Positions 1,480-27,595 of a stretch of 38,360 nucleotides of DNA are shown here, one piece after another (position 1 is the stretch's first letter; each line of letters starts with the position of its first letter). Source of the stretch: a virus; IMG/VR virus record IMGVR_UViG_3300024344_000048, positions 1 through 38,360 of that record. One strand, 5' to 3'. Under the pieces are notes generated by a model, which was not told the DNA's origin, ran no database searches, and worked only from the letters and a program-made list of their open reading frames with translations. The translations under genes were made by a program, and so were the position numbers.

Positions 1480-1502
1480 AATTCTATTTTAATTTAAGTT
1501 AG

Positions 1503-1592
1503 TAACTAGTTGAGGAATTGAACCTCAATACTCGTCAGTAGTCTTAGTCTTTCTGAGGTTTTACCCGTCCTTACTAATTCTAGACCTAGTTA
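1503..1592 (-). ncRNA. tRNA-like acceptor/T-arm minihelix with 57-nt insert
   Basis: On the minus strand TAACTAG (1592-1586) pairs perfectly with CTAGTTA (1509-1503). This helix stacks directly on a T-arm-like hairpin, TTGAGG-TTCAATT-CCTCAA (1528-1510), whose 7-nt loop matches the tRNA T-loop consensus TTCRANY. The 57 nt between the 5' acceptor strand and the T-arm cannot form a 5-bp/7-nt anticodon arm in any register I tried, so it is not an ordinary tRNA. No CCA is encoded. Alternative pairing exists: AACCTCA at 1560-1554 (minus) can pair with TGAGGTT at 1527-1521 and would disrupt the T-arm. Confidence 0.45.
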
Positions 1593-3764: not shown

Positions 3765-3867
3765 ATTCTTCTATTACTTTAGATTGTTCTTGTTTATTCA
3801 AGTTAAATACATTCTTATTAGGAAATAATCTTCTTGAAATCATTATTAATTGAGTTTGATTATACAT
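3748..3867 (-). CDS. 39-aa hypothetical protein
   Basis: The frame from ATG 3867 to TAA 3748 encodes MYNQTQLIMISRRLFPNKN followed by a helical charged tail (NKQEQSKVIEEYERTN). It overlaps the 44-aa gene by 17 nt and begins 11 nt after the stop of the 76-aa gene. It is short and unrecognised, so coding is uncertain. Confidence 0.5.
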   Translation of the reverse strand: MYNQTQLIMISRRLFPNKNVFNLNKQEQSKVIEEYERTN

Positions 3868-3877
3868 AGTTATTATT

Positions 3878-4108
3878 TTAGTAAGTTAATTCTTGTCCAA
3901 ATCCATCCATTAAACTATTTTCTCCGTGTAATTTAGCGACTGATTGTCTCCATTCCCATTCACGCTTGCGATAGTTATAGTCTGTACACCATTTAATCCA
4001 AGCTGAACTTGTATCACATTTACCATATTTCTCTTCGAAATCTCTACATTGTTTTAATTTCGCTGCGATTTTCTTCGCGTCATAGTCTTTAAATTCTTCT
4101 TTATACAT
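3878..4108 (-). CDS. Small hypothetical protein (76 aa)
   Basis: A charged, Trp-rich, probably helical protein (AAKLKQCRDFEEKYG, AWIKWCTDYNYRKREWEWRQS) with three Cys. No family is recognised. Its ATG at 4108 lies inside the last codons of the 30-aa frame upstream (8-nt overlap), consistent with coupling. Confidence 0.75.
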   Translation of the reverse strand: MYKEEFKDYDAKKIAAKLKQCRDFEEKYGKCDTSSAWIKWCTDYNYRKREWEWRQSVAKLHGENSLMDGFGQELTY

Positions 4109-4193
4109 ATCCGTTTATTAATTCAGTTAGTGTTTCTAATGTTATATCGCCATCGACAAACATAATCCAGTAGTCTAAGTTATTTTCTTGCAT
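4101..4193 (-). CDS. 30-aa miniprotein
   Basis: The frame from ATG 4193 to TAA 4101 encodes MQENNLDYWIMFVDGDITLE followed by TLTELINGYV. The composition is protein-like, with an amphipathic acidic helix and no low-complexity runs, and it overlaps the next gene by 8 nt. It begins about 23 nt after the tRNA-like minihelix at 4216-4257, which might set its mRNA 5' end. The function is unknown. Confidence 0.5.
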   Translation of the reverse strand: MQENNLDYWIMFVDGDITLETLTELINGYV

Positions 4194-4215
4194 GATTTAT
4201 TTATTTAATATTAGT

Positions 4216-4257
4216 TAACATTGAGAGAATCGAACTCTCACTAGAACCATTATGTTA
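4216..4257 (-). ncRNA. tRNA-like acceptor/T-arm minihelix (42 nt)
   Basis: On the minus strand TAACAT (4257-4252) pairs with ATGTTA (4221-4216). This helix stacks on a T-arm-like hairpin, TGAGAG-TTCGATT-CTCTCA (4240-4222), which carries a textbook TTCGATT T-loop. Acceptor plus T-stem total 12 bp, the length found in real tRNAs. An 11-nt bulge takes the place of the D and anticodon arms. No anticodon arm can be found upstream and no CCA is encoded. It is therefore not a translation tRNA; it resembles the minimal acceptor/T-arm substrates of RNase P. It starts 15 nt after the stop of the 76-aa gene. Confidence 0.5.
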
Positions 4258-4272
4258 TTTTAAGAGTGTCGT

Positions 4273-4503
4273 TTACTTTACTTCGACGATATCTCTCACA
4301 CTTACAGGAACATTTGTTGAACTTGTGTAAGAGTTGTACTTTATAAAGCAGGGGAGAGTGTTTAATTTCTCTTTCATTACTTCATACACTTTATCGTGAT
4401 TGTAAGTACAAGTTTTACCATTTTTGAATTCAACATTGATTGTTGTGTTTTTGTTGATTAGTGATTTGCGAATAACAAATCTTTTTGAATTAATTGTGTT
4501 CAT
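4273..4503 (-). CDS. Small hypothetical protein (76 aa)
   Basis: A basic N-terminal half (SKRFVIRKSLINKNTTINVEF) is followed by KNGKTCTYNHDKVYEVMKEKL and a Ser/Thr-rich end, which suggests an alpha/beta mini-domain. Not recognised. The leader AACTTAAATTAAAAT before the start is almost the same as that of the gene starting at 1479. Promoter-like copy 4 lies about 57 nt upstream, giving a longer 5' UTR than for other copies. A tRNA-like minihelix follows the stop codon. Confidence 0.75.
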   Translation of the reverse strand: MNTINSKRFVIRKSLINKNTTINVEFKNGKTCTYNHDKVYEVMKEKLNTLPCFIKYNSYTSSTNVPVSVRDIVEVK

Positions 4504-4549
4504 AATTGTGATTTTAATTTAAGTTATTATTATTAGTATTAGTTATTTA

Positions 4550-4586
4550 TTATTATTATCGAAATAGTTATTATATTTGTCTGTGA
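4550..4586 (-). promoter_or_regulatory. Early promoter-like two-box motif, copy 4
   Basis: The minus strand has TCACAGACAAA, 14 nt, then CGATAATAATAATAAA. The copy abuts the stop codon of the upstream 78-aa gene, and the ATG it would serve (4503) is about 57 nt away rather than the usual 20-22. Confidence 0.6.
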
Positions 4587-4823
4587 TTATATTATTATAT
4601 ATTGTAAATCAATTTCATCAGTGTGAATAGAATATTCAATATTATTTTTATTTAATAATTCTAGAGTATTATCAATATAGTCAATAGTGTATTCGAATAG
4701 AATAAATGTATTATTTTTGAATTTTTTAGATTTTATTTTATTGTCAATAAAGAATTGAGTTGAGTCAGAGATGTAATGAATCTCGTCATTTGGTAATATT
4801 GATTGTAATTTATTATAAGTCAT
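4587..4823 (-). CDS. Small hypothetical protein (78 aa)
   Basis: An Asn/Ile/Lys-rich soluble protein with a likely beta-alpha-beta core (NTFILFEYTIDYIDNTLELLNKNNIEYSIHTDE). I do not recognise it. Its general layout (beta strand, helix ending in LLNK, strand) resembles that of the 62-aa product of the next gene upstream, so the two may be distant paralogs; this is inference. Promoter-like copy 5 lies 22 nt upstream of its ATG. Confidence 0.7.
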   Translation of the reverse strand: MTYNKLQSILPNDEIHYISDSTQFFIDNKIKSKKFKNNTFILFEYTIDYIDNTLELLNKNNIEYSIHTDEIDLQYIII

Positions 4824-4833
4824 ATTGTTATTT

Positions 4834-4871
4834 TATTATATTATCGAGTATTTAATTTTATTTGTCTGTAA
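4834..4871 (-). promoter_or_regulatory. Early promoter-like two-box motif, copy 5
   Basis: The minus strand has TTACAGACAAA, 14 nt, then CGATAATATAATAAA, about 22 nt before the ATG at 4823. A cluster of TGTCAT repeats lies 27-73 nt further upstream. Confidence 0.6.
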
Positions 4872-4897
4872 GTGTATATTTGTTTAGTAAATGAATA

Positions 4898-4944
4898 TGT
4901 CATTATGTCATTGGTCAATATGTCATGATGTGACATTGTGTCAT
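4898..4944. repeat. TGTCAT repeat cluster (iteron- or operator-like)
   Basis: Four direct copies of TGTCAT start at 4898, 4906, 4921 and 4939, and a related inverted copy (TGTGACAT) lies at 4929-4936. They fall in the 77-nt spacer directly upstream of promoter-like copy 5 on the minus strand, so they could bind a regulator of that promoter. The irregular spacing argues against a classical replication iteron. Confidence 0.4.
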
Positions 4945-4948
4945 ATTA

Positions 4949-5137
4949 TTATTGTTTATATATTTTATAAGAAGTTGAATATTTATTTTTTAATAATTTT
5001 TCAATATCTTTTAAATTTTTTGATGTGATTTTATGTGTGAATATTAATTTATTATTTAATATTATAAAATTTAAATTTAATGTGTTAATTAATTTTGTTA
5101 TATTAATTGTTTGATATTTTTGAGTTGTTATTATCAT
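4949..5137 (-). CDS. Small hypothetical protein (62 aa)
   Basis: Starting at the ATG at 5137 the product is MIITTQKYQTINITKLINTL followed by a Lys/Asn-rich part ending NKYSTSYKIYKQ. I chose this start rather than an in-frame ATG at 5269 because the extension would translate through promoter-like copy 6 and the GC/homopolymer patch, and because 5137 lies 21 nt from that promoter, as for the other genes. The function is unknown. It is the first gene of the leftward arm. Confidence 0.6.
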   Translation of the reverse strand: MIITTQKYQTINITKLINTLNLNFIILNNKLIFTHKITSKNLKDIEKLLKNKYSTSYKIYKQ

Positions 5138-5145
5138 TGTTTGTT

Positions 5146-5183
5146 TATTATTATTATCGAGAAAAAGTTGAATTTGTCTGTAA
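5146..5183 (-). promoter_or_regulatory. Early promoter-like two-box motif, copy 6
   Basis: The minus strand has TTACAGACAAA, 13 nt (one less than the other copies), then CGATAATAATAATAAA, about 21 nt before the ATG at 5137. This is the outermost leftward promoter copy in the divergence region. Confidence 0.6.
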
Positions 5184-5485
5184 TAGGAAGACCAAAAAGG
5201 CCCTGGGGCGCCAAAAAAAAGCCATTTTACTAGAGAATTACAGAAAAAAAAAGGGAGGGGGGACACCATAGCTCTCTATTTGTAACGTACTTCTAGATCT
5301 CTTCCCCTTAATGATATTATACTACGTATAAATATCTAGATAGGAGTAAGGTATATATATACCTTATATAATAGATATACTATATTACACAGACTTTTTC
5401 ATATTTACATAAATAAGCAAAAAAGATTTTGTAAAAATTTATATTTATGTGTGAGTATATATACTATAAGAACTAACAAAATATT
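5184..5485. other. Divergence region between leftward and rightward genes
   Basis: No convincing gene. From left to right it holds a patch with GGCCCTGGGGCGCC, runs of A8, A9 and G6 (5199-5264), a perfect 18-bp palindrome (5348-5365), and an extremely A+T-rich stretch up to the first rightward start at 5486. A late promoter for the fiber operon should lie here, but I see no clear match to the Bacteroidota TTTG...TAnnTTTG consensus. Confidence 0.6.
5348..5365. repeat. Perfect 18-bp palindrome
   Basis: AAGGTATATATATACCTT is its own reverse complement. It lies about 120 nt upstream of the first rightward gene, where an operator or the core of a divergent control region could be expected. It might also simply be AT-rich cruciform-prone DNA. 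Confidence 0.5.
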
Positions 5486-22980: not shown

Positions 22981-25190
22981 TGTACGAGCAAACTTTATAT
23001 AAAGTATTACCTGATTATATTAAACCTAAAACTCTTAAAAAACAAAATAAATTTAAGAAATGGGAGTATGGATATAATGAAGATCACGACGTAGTAGTTA
23101 TATCTAAAACAGGTGAAATAGGTGAGGTGTATGAAATTCAAAATTTAAAAATAGCTTTACCTAAAAAAGAAAAGGTTCATAAATTTGAAAATGATAAATG
23201 GAGTAAGACTGAGTATCCTAAAACTTTAAGTAAAATTAAAACAGTTTTTGATTGGAAACAATATCCTCAAGACTTTAAAGAAAAGTGGTTTGAATATATT
23301 GATGAAGAATTTAAAAGACGGGAAGAAGGTTTTTGGTTTTATAATAAAGGAAAAGCTACTTATATCACAGGTACTCATTACATGTATTTGCAATGGTCTA
23401 AGATTGATGTTGGAGCACCTGATTATAGAGAAGCAAATAGATTATTCTTTATATTTTGGGAAGCTTGTAAAGCTGATATAAGAGCATATGGAATGTGTTA
23501 TCTTAAAAACAGACGTTCTGGATTTTCTTTTATGGCTTCAGGAGAAGTTGTAAACTTAGCTACAATATCTAGTGATTCAAGGTATGGAATACTATCTAAA
23601 ACAGGTCCTGATGCTAAAAAAATGTTTACTGACAAAGTAGTTCCAATATCAGTTAATTATCCTTTCTTTTTTAAACCGATTCAAGATGGTATGGATCGAC
23701 CTAAAACAGAATTAGCATATAGAGTGCCAGCTTCTAAATTTACTAGAAAAAGTATAGAATCAGGAAGTGAGGATTTAGAACTACAAGGTCTTGATACAAC
23801 AATTGACTGGAAAAATACAGGGGATAATAGTTATGATGGTGAAAAATTAAAACTATTAGTACATGATGAATCTGGTAAATGGGAAAGACCAAACAATATT
23901 TTAAATAACTGGAGGGTTACAAAAACCACTCTAAGACTTGGTAGTAGGATTATTGGTAAGTGCATGATGGGATCAACATCTAACGCATTAGATAAAGGAG
24001 GTAGAAATTTTAAAAAACTATATGATGATTCAGATGTTACGAAAAGAAACAGCAATGGACAGACTCGCTCAGGACTATATTCTTTGTTCATTCCTATGGA
24101 ATGGAATTACGAAGGATACATTGATTCTTACGGGATGCCTGTATTCGACACCCCACAAAGAAAAGTGCATGGACCTCATGGAGTACCAATTAAACTCGGA
24201 GTTGTTAAATACTGGGAAAATGAGGTAGAAGGATTAAAAGAAGATCAAGATGGGTTAAATGAATTTTATAGACAATTCCCAAGAACTACTAAGCATGCTT
24301 TTAGAGATGAATCTAAATCATCTTTATTTAATCTTACAAAAATATATCAACAGATAGATTTTAATGAAGATTTAAAAAATACATTAGGAGTTACAAAGGG
24401 TAGTTTTCAATGGGAAAATGGTCAAAAAGACACAAAAGTTATATTTGTTCCAAACAATCAAGGAAGATTTTTAGTAACGTGGGTTCCACCTGCACAACTT
24501 CAAAACAAAAGATATTTAAAAAATGGAATTAATTATCCTGGTAATGAGCATTGTGGTGCTTTTGGATGTGACCCATATGATATATCAGGAACAGTAGATA
24601 AAAGAGGATCTAACGGGTCTTTACACGGTTTAACAAAATTTAGCATGGAAGAAGTTCCACCTAATCATTTTTTCTTAGAATATATAGCTCGTCCACAAAC
24701 TGCTGAAATATTTTTTGAAGATGTACTTATGGCTTGCGTATTTTATGGAATGCCAATATTAGCAGAAAACAATAAACCAAGATTACTTTATTATTTTAAA
24801 CGTAGGGGTTATAGAGGTTTTGCTATGAACAGACCAGATAAAAAAAGAAATAAGTTATCTGTTACAGAAAGAGAAATAGGTGGTATACCTAATTCAAGCG
24901 AAGACATTAAACAAGCTCACGCATCTGCAATTGAAACCTATATAGAACATTTTATAGGATTAAAAGAAACAGGTTATGGAGATATGTATTTTCAAAGAAC
25001 ATTAGAGGATTGGTCTAAATTTAATATAAATAACAGGACAACTCATGATGCTTCAATTAGTTCAGGTTTAGCTTTAATGGCTTGTAACAAACACAGGTAT
25101 TCACCTGTTAACAAGAGAGAGTTAAAAGCTGTTGATCTAGGTATAAAAAAATACAACAATAAAGGAACTTTATCAAAAATTATAAATTAA
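22980..25190 (+). CDS. terL: Terminase large subunit (736 aa)
   Basis: The DNA-packaging motor. The ATPase domain has a degenerate Walker A at residues 176-183 (KNRRSGFS), Walker B at 290-297 (LKLLVHDE, D296/E297) and a coupling motif near 329-334 (MMGSTS). The nuclease domain shows the acidic residues expected of an RNase H-like fold: GCDPYD (D531), AENN (E596) and THDASIS (D690). It is longer than most TerL (about 450-650 aa), mainly through a 120-residue N-terminal extension. Its stop overlaps the portal start by 1 nt, consistent with joint expression of the packaging machine. Confidence 0.95.
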   Translation: MYEQTLYKVLPDYIKPKTLKKQNKFKKWEYGYNEDHDVVVISKTGEIGEVYEIQNLKIALPKKEKVHKFENDKWSKTEYPKTLSKIKTVFDWKQYPQDFKEKWFEYIDEEFKRREEGFWFYNKGKATYITGTHYMYLQWSKIDVGAPDYREANRLFFIFWEACKADIRAYGMCYLKNRRSGFSFMASGEVVNLATISSDSRYGILSKTGPDAKKMFTDKVVPISVNYPFFFKPIQDGMDRPKTELAYRVPASKFTRKSIESGSEDLELQGLDTTIDWKNTGDNSYDGEKLKLLVHDESGKWERPNNILNNWRVTKTTLRLGSRIIGKCMMGSTSNALDKGGRNFKKLYDDSDVTKRNSNGQTRSGLYSLFIPMEWNYEGYIDSYGMPVFDTPQRKVHGPHGVPIKLGVVKYWENEVEGLKEDQDGLNEFYRQFPRTTKHAFRDESKSSLFNLTKIYQQIDFNEDLKNTLGVTKGSFQWENGQKDTKVIFVPNNQGRFLVTWVPPAQLQNKRYLKNGINYPGNEHCGAFGCDPYDISGTVDKRGSNGSLHGLTKFSMEEVPPNHFFLEYIARPQTAEIFFEDVLMACVFYGMPILAENNKPRLLYYFKRRGYRGFAMNRPDKKRNKLSVTEREIGGIPNSSEDIKQAHASAIETYIEHFIGLKETGYGDMYFQRTLEDWSKFNINNRTTHDASISSGLALMACNKHRYSPVNKRELKAVDLGIKKYNNKGTLSKIIN

Positions 25191-27595
25191 TGAATATATA
25201 TACTAATACCAATAGTGCTTTCCCTAGTCAAGTAGTGAGTGATGCTGAAAAAGCAAGTATTGAATATGGGAGTCAAGTTGCTATGGCCATAGAATATGAA
25301 TGGTTTAAGACAGGAAGAACTAATGGAAATAGGTATTTAACTAATTGGAATCAATTTCACCAATTAAGATTATATGCTCGTGGAGAACAAAGCATACAAA
25401 AATATAAAGATGAATTATCTATTAATGGTGATTTGTCTTATCTTAATTTAGATTGGCAACCAGTTCCTATATTATCTAAATTTGTAGATATAGTTGTAAA
25501 TGGCATATCTGCTAAAACATATGATATTAAAGCATACGCTCAAGATCCAGAGTCTATAAAGCAAAGAACTAAGTACGCTGCTAAAATACAAGAGGATATG
25601 CTTGCTAGAGAATATCTTAATTCTTTAAAGCAATCTTTAGGTATAAACTTATACCAAAGCTCTTCACCTGAAATACTACCTGAAACTCCTGAAGAACTTG
25701 AACTTCACATGCAACTATCTTATAAGCAAAGTATAGAGATAGCTGAAGAAGAAGCTATATCTTCTGTTATGGATCATAACAAATACGATTTAACAAAGCG
25801 AAGATTAAACATGGACTTAGCTGTTTGTGGTATTGCAGCTTGTAAAACAAACTTTAATACAGCTGAGGGTATAACAGTAGATTATGTAGATCCAGCTTAT
25901 ATGGTTTATTCATATACTGAAGATCCTAATTTTGAAGATATATATTATGTAGGAGAAATAAAGTCTATTACAATTCCTGAACTTAAAAAAGAATTTCCTG
26001 ATATATCTAATGAAGAATTAGAAAGAATACAGAAAATGCCTGGAAATAGAAATTATATTACAGGTTGGGGAGGTTATGATGAAAATACTGTTCAAATAAT
26101 GTATTTTGATTATAAAACATATCATAACCAAGTATTTAAAATAAAACAAACAGATCAAGGTTTAGAAAAAGCCTTAGAAAAAGATGATACTTTTAATCCT
26201 CCACAAAATGATGGGTTTGAAAAAGTAAGTAGAAGTATAGAGGTTTTATATAGTGGTGCTAAAGTGCTGGGAACTGATACTATGTTAAAGTGGGAACTTG
26301 CTGAAAACATGTCTAGACCTATGTCAGATACTACAAAAGTAGAAATGAATTACGCGATATGTGCGCCACGTATGTATAAAGGTAGAATAGAATCACTTGT
26401 AAGTAAGTGTATTGGTTTTGCTGATATGATACAATTAACCCACTTAAAACTACAACAAGTGTTAGCTAAAATGGTACCAGACGGTGTTTATTTAGACATG
26501 GACGGTCTTGCTGAAGTTGATTTAGGTAACGGAACTAATTATAATCCAGCAGAAGCATTAAATATGTATTTCCAAACTGGTAGTATTGTTGGTAGATCTC
26601 TTACTCAAGATGGTGATATGAATCCTGGAAAAGTTCCTATTCAAGAATTAACAGCTAGTTCTGGCCAAGGTAAGATACAAAGTTTAATTTCTACATATCA
26701 ATATTATTTACAAATGATAAGAGATGTAACGGGATTAAATGAAGCGAGAGATGGTAGTACACCAGATAAACAAACATTAGTTGGTTTACAAAAAATGGCA
26801 GCTAACGCGTCTAATGTAGCTACTAGACACATCAAACAAGCTGGTTTATATATAACATTAAGGATAGCAGAAAATATTGCTTTAAAAATAGCAGACGCAT
26901 TAGAATTTCCATTAACAGCTGAGTCTTTAGTTAATAATATTTCTAATTACAATGTAAATACTTTGATTGAGGTTCAAAATCTTAATCTTCATGATTTTGG
27001 TATATATTTAGAATTAGAACCAGACGAAGAACAGCAAGCTCAATTAGAGCAAAATATTCAAATGGCTTTACAGCAAGGTGGGATTGATTTAGAAGATGCT
27101 ATAGATTTAAGACAAATAAAAAATCTTAAATTAGCTAATCAGTTATTAAAAGTAAAACGTAAAGCTAAAGGTAAGCAAGATCAAGAAAACTCTATGGCTC
27201 AAGCTAGAGCTCAATCTGAAGCTCAAGCTGATGCAGCTGAAAAAATAGGTTTAGCAGAAGTTCAAAAACAAGAAGCTATTTCTGGATCTAAAGTTCAATA
27301 TGAACAAGCAAGATCTCAGATGGAGATTCAACGTATGCAAACTGCTGCACAATTAGAACAAGAAAAAATGCAGACTCAATTCCAGTATGATATGCAACTA
27401 AAGCAGATGGATATGCAGTCAATGCAAGATAAAGAACAAAGAATAGAAGATCGTAAAGATAAGCGTATAAAAATGGAAGGTACGCAACAAAGTCAAATGA
27501 TAGATCAAAGAAAAAATGATTTAATGCCAATTGATTTTGAAAAAGAAGGTGCAAACCCACAAGCTGATGGAATGCCGCAAGGACCAACAGCTTAA
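25190..27595 (+). CDS. Portal protein (801 aa)
   Basis: The dodecameric portal is inferred from position after TerL, length, and typical portal features: GYLTNWNQFHQLRLYARGEQ-like N-terminus, VPILSKFVDIVVNGI, DVTGLNEARDGSTPDKQTLVGLQ (a hallmark stretch near residues 515-540), then helical crown. Beyond about residue 640 there is a long Gln/Met/Ala-rich coiled coil (QARAQSEAQADAAEK ... MQIQRMQTAAQLEQEK-like) ending in a charged tail, consistent with a P22-like barrel that extends into the head. Size matches large podovirus portals. Confidence 0.9.
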   Translation: MNIYTNTNSAFPSQVVSDAEKASIEYGSQVAMAIEYEWFKTGRTNGNRYLTNWNQFHQLRLYARGEQSIQKYKDELSINGDLSYLNLDWQPVPILSKFVDIVVNGISAKTYDIKAYAQDPESIKQRTKYAAKIQEDMLAREYLNSLKQSLGINLYQSSSPEILPETPEELELHMQLSYKQSIEIAEEEAISSVMDHNKYDLTKRRLNMDLAVCGIAACKTNFNTAEGITVDYVDPAYMVYSYTEDPNFEDIYYVGEIKSITIPELKKEFPDISNEELERIQKMPGNRNYITGWGGYDENTVQIMYFDYKTYHNQVFKIKQTDQGLEKALEKDDTFNPPQNDGFEKVSRSIEVLYSGAKVLGTDTMLKWELAENMSRPMSDTTKVEMNYAICAPRMYKGRIESLVSKCIGFADMIQLTHLKLQQVLAKMVPDGVYLDMDGLAEVDLGNGTNYNPAEALNMYFQTGSIVGRSLTQDGDMNPGKVPIQELTASSGQGKIQSLISTYQYYLQMIRDVTGLNEARDGSTPDKQTLVGLQKMAANASNVATRHIKQAGLYITLRIAENIALKIADALEFPLTAESLVNNISNYNVNTLIEVQNLNLHDFGIYLELEPDEEQQAQLEQNIQMALQQGGIDLEDAIDLRQIKNLKLANQLLKVKRKAKGKQDQENSMAQARAQSEAQADAAEKIGLAEVQKQEAISGSKVQYEQARSQMEIQRMQTAAQLEQEKMQTQFQYDMQLKQMDMQSMQDKEQRIEDRKDKRIKMEGTQQSQMIDQRKNDLMPIDFEKEGANPQADGMPQGPTA

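Follow-up and report, generated by a model that had tools for sequence, protein, structure and literature searches.

What can a tRNA-like hairpin that has neither a D arm nor an anticodon arm be doing between two genes of a virus? The question is raised by a 42-nucleotide (nt) element on the minus strand, at positions 4216-4257, of IMGVR_UViG_3300024344_000048, a 38,360-base IMG/VR virus record that was analysed as a whole (the window). Comparison with related phages points to a conserved RNA structure, and the parts of it that are kept suggest an answer: the element is probably an armless, minimal tRNA mimic, a punctuation mark at which host RNase P and RNase Z would cut.

A preliminary description had placed a 42-nt minus-strand hairpin at this site, and direct reading of the sequence reproduced its coordinates, helices, loop and bulge exactly. 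From 4257 to 4216 the minus strand reads TAACAT AATGGTTCTAG TGAGAG TTCGATT CTCTCA ATGTTA (6 + 11 + 6 + 7 + 6 + 6 = 42 nt). A 6-base-pair (bp) acceptor-like helix stacks on a 6-bp T-stem to give 12 bp, closed by a TTCGATT loop and interrupted by an 11-nt bulge; this hairpin is also the minimum-free-energy fold of 4216-4257 (-7.8 kcal/mol). In tRNA terms, the element has a 5-bp T-stem and a 7-nt acceptor 3' strand, followed by a discriminator A (4215) and C74 (4214), and the 'bulge' corresponds to a WATGGT segment that is D-loop-like and has an invariant GG. Its placement between two leftward genes (4273-4503 and an open reading frame of 30 amino acids (aa) at 4101-4193) was also borne out. The parts of the element are as follows:

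4252-4257, minus strand: 5' acceptor-like strand UAACAU (+1 to +6), which pairs with 4216-4221; compensatory changes occur in all six pairs among relatives
4241-4251, minus strand: 11-nt D-loop-like connector AAUGGUUCUAG, which stands in for the D arm, anticodon arm and variable region
4247-4248, minus strand: GG of the connector, invariant in 25 aligned relatives
4235-4240, minus strand: T-stem 5' strand UGAGAG, the five canonical pairs (GAGAG) extended by one that corresponds to position 66
4228-4234, minus strand: T-loop UUCGAUU, of which TTCGA is invariant among aligned relatives
4222-4227, minus strand: T-stem 3' strand CUCUCA
4216-4221, minus strand: 3' acceptor-like strand AUGUUA
4211-4215, minus strand: tail ACUAA, made of discriminator A73 (4215), C74 (4214) and then UAA
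4194-4214, minus strand: short A+U-rich leader of 21 nt from the discriminator to the next AUG

Is this structure more than a chance fold? The folding energy of the single sequence was unremarkable (z -1.3 to -1.45). A pattern consisting of the T-loop and 6 + 6 perfect pairs at short distance matched 43 times, against once in the same 3.2 Mb after mononucleotide shuffling, and some of the 43 matches are parts of real tRNAs. The T-arm pattern alone, applied across IMG/VR, retrieved mostly ordinary tRNAs and was abandoned. The protein of the 76-aa upstream gene was used as a synteny anchor and gave 67 loci, 61 of which were usable; a T-arm lay within 260 nt downstream of the anchor-gene stop codon in 49 of the 61. 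Throughout the 42 distinct syntenic elements the acceptor 3' strand has an upstream partner with 5-6 Watson-Crick pairs, six of them in 34 elements, whereas six pairs were reached in 5% of cases when the 3' strand was taken from another locus as a control. The partner mostly sits 10-13 nt ahead of the T-stem. The helix itself differs between phages: TAACAT/ATGTTA in the window is replaced by TGTCAC/GTGACA, TCTAGT/ACTAGA, TATACT/AGTATA, TAATAT/ATATTA, AGACGT/ACGTCT, TGAAGT/ACTTCA, AGTACG/CGTACT and others in relatives.

The same conclusion was reached by alignment. With 19 sequences, 100% of the cells were paired, changes on both sides occurred in 10 of 11 pairs, and 67 double-changed cells were counted against 22 in shuffles, slid and shuffled controls being far lower; RNAalifold yielded the same helix structure unprompted. 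These 19 sequences had been chosen by a scan that required pairing; the test on the 42 syntenic elements made no such demand and is the fair one. A covariance model (R1) was built from the aligned sequences, excluding a GTGGGT class in which direct MAFFT alignment had put one gap wrongly. Searching 87 sources with it at E up to 1 gave 69 matches, and 78 loci obtained with a loose DNA pattern gave 60; some of the elements are 55-65% G+C. The alignment to the model, with 47 distinct rows, contained 171 double-changed cells versus 55 after shuffling. The relatives are not independent sequences, yet one-off inheritance does not adequately account for the variety of acceptor sequences. Covariation in related phages had been set beforehand as the test that could refute the structure, and the strands were found to change with compensation, which strongly favours it. 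The comparative test is decisive in excluding chance and argues for a conserved RNA structure.

Which parts of a tRNA have been kept? The bases that stay constant are the start of the T-loop (TTCGA), the GG of the connector (typically within WATGGT) and the tail N73-C74. They correspond to the tRNA T-loop, to the GG of the D-loop, which would dock on that T-loop, and to the initial C of the CCA end. The stack of 12 bp is that of tRNA, and the D-stem and anticodon arm are missing. The connector, 11 nt in the window, measures 10-13 nt in most relatives, but some carry inserts of 41-84 nt at the same genomic place where others have only 10 nt. Because the length of such inserts varies so widely (34-100 nt or just 10 nt, at homologous or comparable positions), the interior is not under selection; likewise, no synthetase identity is kept, because the acceptor sequence varies freely at one locus. 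The constrained parts are those that tRNA end-processing enzymes are known to read, and the parts for decoding and charging are gone.

The portal-like protein of the window (25190-27595) is 51% identical to that of the uncultured podovirus MW202828, 44% to that of Maribacter phage Panino, 41% to that of a Flavobacterium Elemovirus and 34% to that of Cellulophaga phage phi38:1. On the basis of these similarities and of a phage GroEL, the window is most likely a podovirus-like phage of Flavobacteriia, its host being a marine member of the Bacteroidota. Its leftmost 5 kb is a series of small genes, all leftward. The genes that matter here are:

4273-4503, minus strand: upstream gene, 76 aa, function unassigned, whose homologues were used to find the element in other phages
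4101-4193, minus strand: downstream gene of 30 aa; visual comparison shows it conserved in the same place in L203, L204 and L267
13839-15395: GroEL chaperonin gene, about 40% identical to the GroELs of other phages

C74 follows all 42 distinct syntenic elements. The tails are ACTAA or ACAAA (A-C-T/A-A), with no encoded CCA; ACTAA had been imposed in the pattern scan, and invariance was judged solely on the syntenic set. The tRNA genes of the host family (Flavobacteriaceae) have the same half-encoded terminus, with C74 in 37 of 37 and no CCA in 33 of 37 (L447-L476), and when coordinates were taken from Rfam instead of ARAGORN, all 17 measurable host tRNAs had C74. C74 is also found in 38 of 38 tRNAs of related flavophages, and tRNAs of other viral contigs mostly encode CCA. 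In this tail the mimicry reaches the unpaired 3' end, beyond what folding alone requires. RNase Z cleaves CCA-less precursors immediately after the discriminator (PMC8549757), and RNase Z genes were found in all 31 sampled host-family genomes, 29 of them above the cut-off. When 299 genomes of the family of G018 were searched with the model, the sole match lay in the G018 bin, on a small contig where the phage gene is encoded too, and the other 298 gave none. This distribution indicates that the element is phage-borne.

Position relative to genes is constrained as well. Strong model matches fall on the sense strand, the distance from discriminator to next ATG has a median of 22 nt (at least 64 distinct elements), most elements end 15-38 nt ahead of the AUG, and the stop codon mostly lies about 15 nt or about 55-110 nt before +1. 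At L208 and L216-L220, six loci that lack the element, the upstream gene is slightly longer and either overlaps the next start codon or ends directly against it. The longer upstream spacers contain two kinds of H-type pseudoknot, and in each kind both stems show compensating changes. In the first kind, stem 1 is for example CGAG/CTCG, AGTCG/CGACT or CCAG/CTGG and stem 2 is ACTTGTT/AACAAGT, ACTATTC/GAATAGT or ACTGAC/GTCAGT; the other kind combines, for example, TGGT/ACCA, GGGT/ACCC or AGGT/ACCT with CTCACC/GGTGAG, CTCATC/GATGAG or CTATCC/GGATAG. Almost always, stem 2 stops 2-6 nt short of +1.

How would such an element work? It would punctuate the leftward early polycistronic RNA, these genes being presumably transcribed as one RNA. 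Host RNase P would cut in front of 4257, at the 5' end of the element, and host RNase Z behind the discriminator at 4215. Together, the two cuts would free the element as a small RNA and leave two mRNAs, one upstream and one downstream, the latter with a short leader of about 20 nt. The upstream mRNA of many relatives would end just after an H-type pseudoknot, well placed against 3' exonucleases, and mRNA stability or translation may be affected. Punctuation is the simplest reading, because the constrained parts are the shell needed for end processing and because t-elements and RNase Z provide precedents. The preliminary description had offered a processing mark in the polycistronic RNA among its options, and this one fits best given the sense orientation, the tight spacing to the ATG, the loss at coupled genes and C74; the bases at -1 and +1 are not those that bacterial RNase P favours most. 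Its view of the element as an acceptor/T-arm mimic between genes holds, since the end-processing shell is kept, and its decoy option is less favoured in view of the fixed cis position.

Several observations weigh against punctuation. Bacterial RNase P favours U at -1 and G at +1. In at least 65 distinct elements, the -1 base is A in 38, C in 15, U in 10 and G in 2, and the +1 base is U in 31, A in 25, G in 7 and C in 2; because -1 is mostly A and +1 mostly U or A, the RNase P half of the proposal is weakened. The stack is only 11 bp in some relatives, the acceptor helix of the window copy is A/U-rich, and that copy has no upstream pseudoknot. ACTAA also occurs 22-40 nt before other genes of the window, and the UAA may belong to the leader. 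Finally, no clear copies turned up in cultured relatives, among them Elemovirus, phi38:1, Panino, phi18:3 and phi46:3. At the DNA level, the search against cultured phages gave weak matches only, many of them inside annotated tRNAs, and no close match; a crAss-like match, cr10_1, looks like an ordinary short tRNA and not like the minihelix.

The unfavourable -1 and +1 bases lead to the alternative that RNase Z acts alone, in which case the element would stay on the upstream mRNA as its 3' terminus, CCA-tailed and stabilising, like the tRNA-like structure of plant viruses. Plant-virus 3' ends combine a pseudoknot with a tRNA-like structure, and the upstream pseudoknots recall them; the host-like A73-C74 end and the presence of RNase Z in the host family point in the same direction. 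The full 12-bp stack and the elbow, formed by the T-loop and the D-loop-like GG, are however also determinants for RNase P, and this alternative, which differs from punctuation solely in the 5' cut, is unlikely.

It is improbable that the excised RNA acts in trans as a decoy that titrates host RNase P, RNase Z, the CCA enzyme or anti-phage tRNA nucleases. Such an RNA would present a complete elbow and acceptor end, and there are several copies per genome, but the cis position is fixed between the same genes with tight spacing to the next ATG, the element is lost where the genes are fused or coupled, and without an anticodon arm it would not serve against anticodon nucleases. Quite improbable, too, is an uncleaved cis structure that insulates or tunes downstream translation or blocks exonucleases: the end of the element, mostly 15-38 nt before the AUG, suits it, but any hairpin would suffice and the invariant T-loop, GG and C74 are left unexplained. 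Both readings explain less than punctuation does.

A functionless remnant, either of a decayed tRNA gene or of a host tRNA at an integration site, is very improbable. The T-arm is tRNA-like and a real tRNA-Met is found in the same operons of relatives, but decay gives neither compensatory changes in all helices nor constant spacing, and an attachment-site fragment would carry a fixed sequence matching the 3' half of a host tRNA, while the two acceptor strands of these elements co-vary; for the conserved structure, the alignment and synteny tests refute this origin. An intrinsic transcription terminator is hardly credible: the hairpin lies at a gene end but has no U run, a scan of 3800-5300 found no such terminator, and the combination of a G+C-rich hairpin with a U run is absent.

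How does a tRNA mimic of this kind compare with known systems? ARAGORN called no tRNA or transfer-messenger RNA (tmRNA) gene in the window and did not call the minihelices of relatives either. No Rfam family covers the element in the window and nine relatives, and no RF00005 match was found in 3800-4900 at E up to 10. With tRNA (RF00005) it shares the 12-bp acceptor/T stack, the T-loop, the D-loop GG and N73-C74, but not the D-stem and anticodon arm. The t-elements of plant mitochondria are tRNA-like structures at mRNA ends set by RNase P and RNase Z, which are CCA-tailed and not aminoacylated (PMC11658184). They too are tRNA-like RNA at borders of co-oriented genes in polycistronic RNA, whereas the phage element has no cloverleaf, D-stem, anticodon arm or homology to tRNA genes, is carried by phages and is maintained through compensating changes in many genomes; it would work like a t-element, yet falls outside that class as defined. 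In mitochondrial tRNA punctuation, intergenic tRNA structures define mRNA ends, but those are true tRNAs, whereas the phage element is a 42-nt mimic stripped of what decoding needs.

RNase P cuts hairpins made of acceptor, T-stem and T-loop at the canonical site (PMC11143913). Model substrates such as AT1 have the same stacked architecture, but they are synthetic and have no D-loop-like connector, whereas the phage element is natural, has the D-loop-like GG and encodes no CCA; the U-1/G+1 that is favourable in minimal substrates is not what the phage elements carry. In comparison with the CCA-less pre-tRNAs cleaved by RNase Z, both features are present, namely no encoded CCA and the enzyme in the hosts. 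The C4 antisense RNA of P1/P7 is a phage RNA cut by RNase P, and reviews include phage RNAs among the substrates of that enzyme. Like the elements proposed here, C4 is a non-tRNA substrate, but it is a regulatory antisense RNA and they are repeated units at gene borders. With the tRNA-like domain of tmRNA, the element has in common the acceptor, the T-arm and a stemless D-loop, and a neighbouring class in relatives begins GGGGGTGA..TGG..TTGACG like tmRNA, but the 42-nt minihelix has no tag reading frame, pseudoknot chain or helix 2. A literature search found no description of such phage elements, which is weak evidence of absence given that subscription journals were mostly outside the search.

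The window and its relatives contain further tRNA-like elements:

1504-1591, minus strand: second tRNA-like element, AACUAG, an interior of 57-58 nt, UUGAGG, loop UUCAAUU, CCUCAA and CUAGUU
1499-1503, minus strand: ACUAA following the second element

This second element lies 24 nt before gene 1189-1479, and its AACTAG..CTAGTT class occurs in the same operon of relatives L125, L126, L127, L218, L222, L240 and L246, with inserts of 23-68 nt. Most of these related phages have one real tRNA-Met in the same operons. Another class in relatives starts GGGNGTGA..GG, in some cases with TTGAC, and recalls the tRNA-like domain of tmRNA, with no evident tag frame; its T-loops are at L126 4554 (-), L134 4438 (-), L222 12989 (+), L240 12644 (+) and L246 14707 (+). 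A tmRNA with a 22-aa tag was called by ARAGORN in L436 6806-7165 (-) and L437 17951-18310 (+), the Cellulophaga phages phi38:1 and Calle_2, where some 20 tRNA genes lie alongside.

The pseudoknots that precede the elements form recurrent classes of their own. Class A, an H-type pseudoknot with an A-rich third loop and compensated substitutions in each stem, was seen at L241 10242-10290, L244 10227-10275, L255 10225-10274, L260 10224-10273, L278 1457-1504, L293 12337-12387 and others, where it ends 2-4 nt before the tRNA-like element; Rfam reported no family for it in the loci scanned. A second class, NGGT-GA-CTCACC-GA-ACCN ... GGTGAG, lies just upstream of the tRNA-like element at L206 10242-10288, L221 10242-10288, L227 10246-10292, L240 10290-10335 and L245 10915-10963, and both classes apparently occur in tandem in L240, L248 and L249. 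A wider proposal can be put forward tentatively: phages of Bacteroidota may carry a module made of an H-type pseudoknot and an armless tRNA mimic at several gene borders, where host tRNA-maturation enzymes might divide the early polycistronic transcript into mRNAs whose 3' ends are protected and whose leaders are short and clean.

What would this mean for phage biology? If punctuation is the right reading, tRNA punctuation, known from organelles, would extend to phages, and the tRNA in question would be a naturally occurring minimal one of only 42 nt. The natural variants, of which there are at least 65 distinct ones, would reveal which features of tRNA the end-processing enzymes truly need. 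It would also explain tRNA-like sequences between phage genes that tRNA finders miss, and would provide a marker for their annotation.
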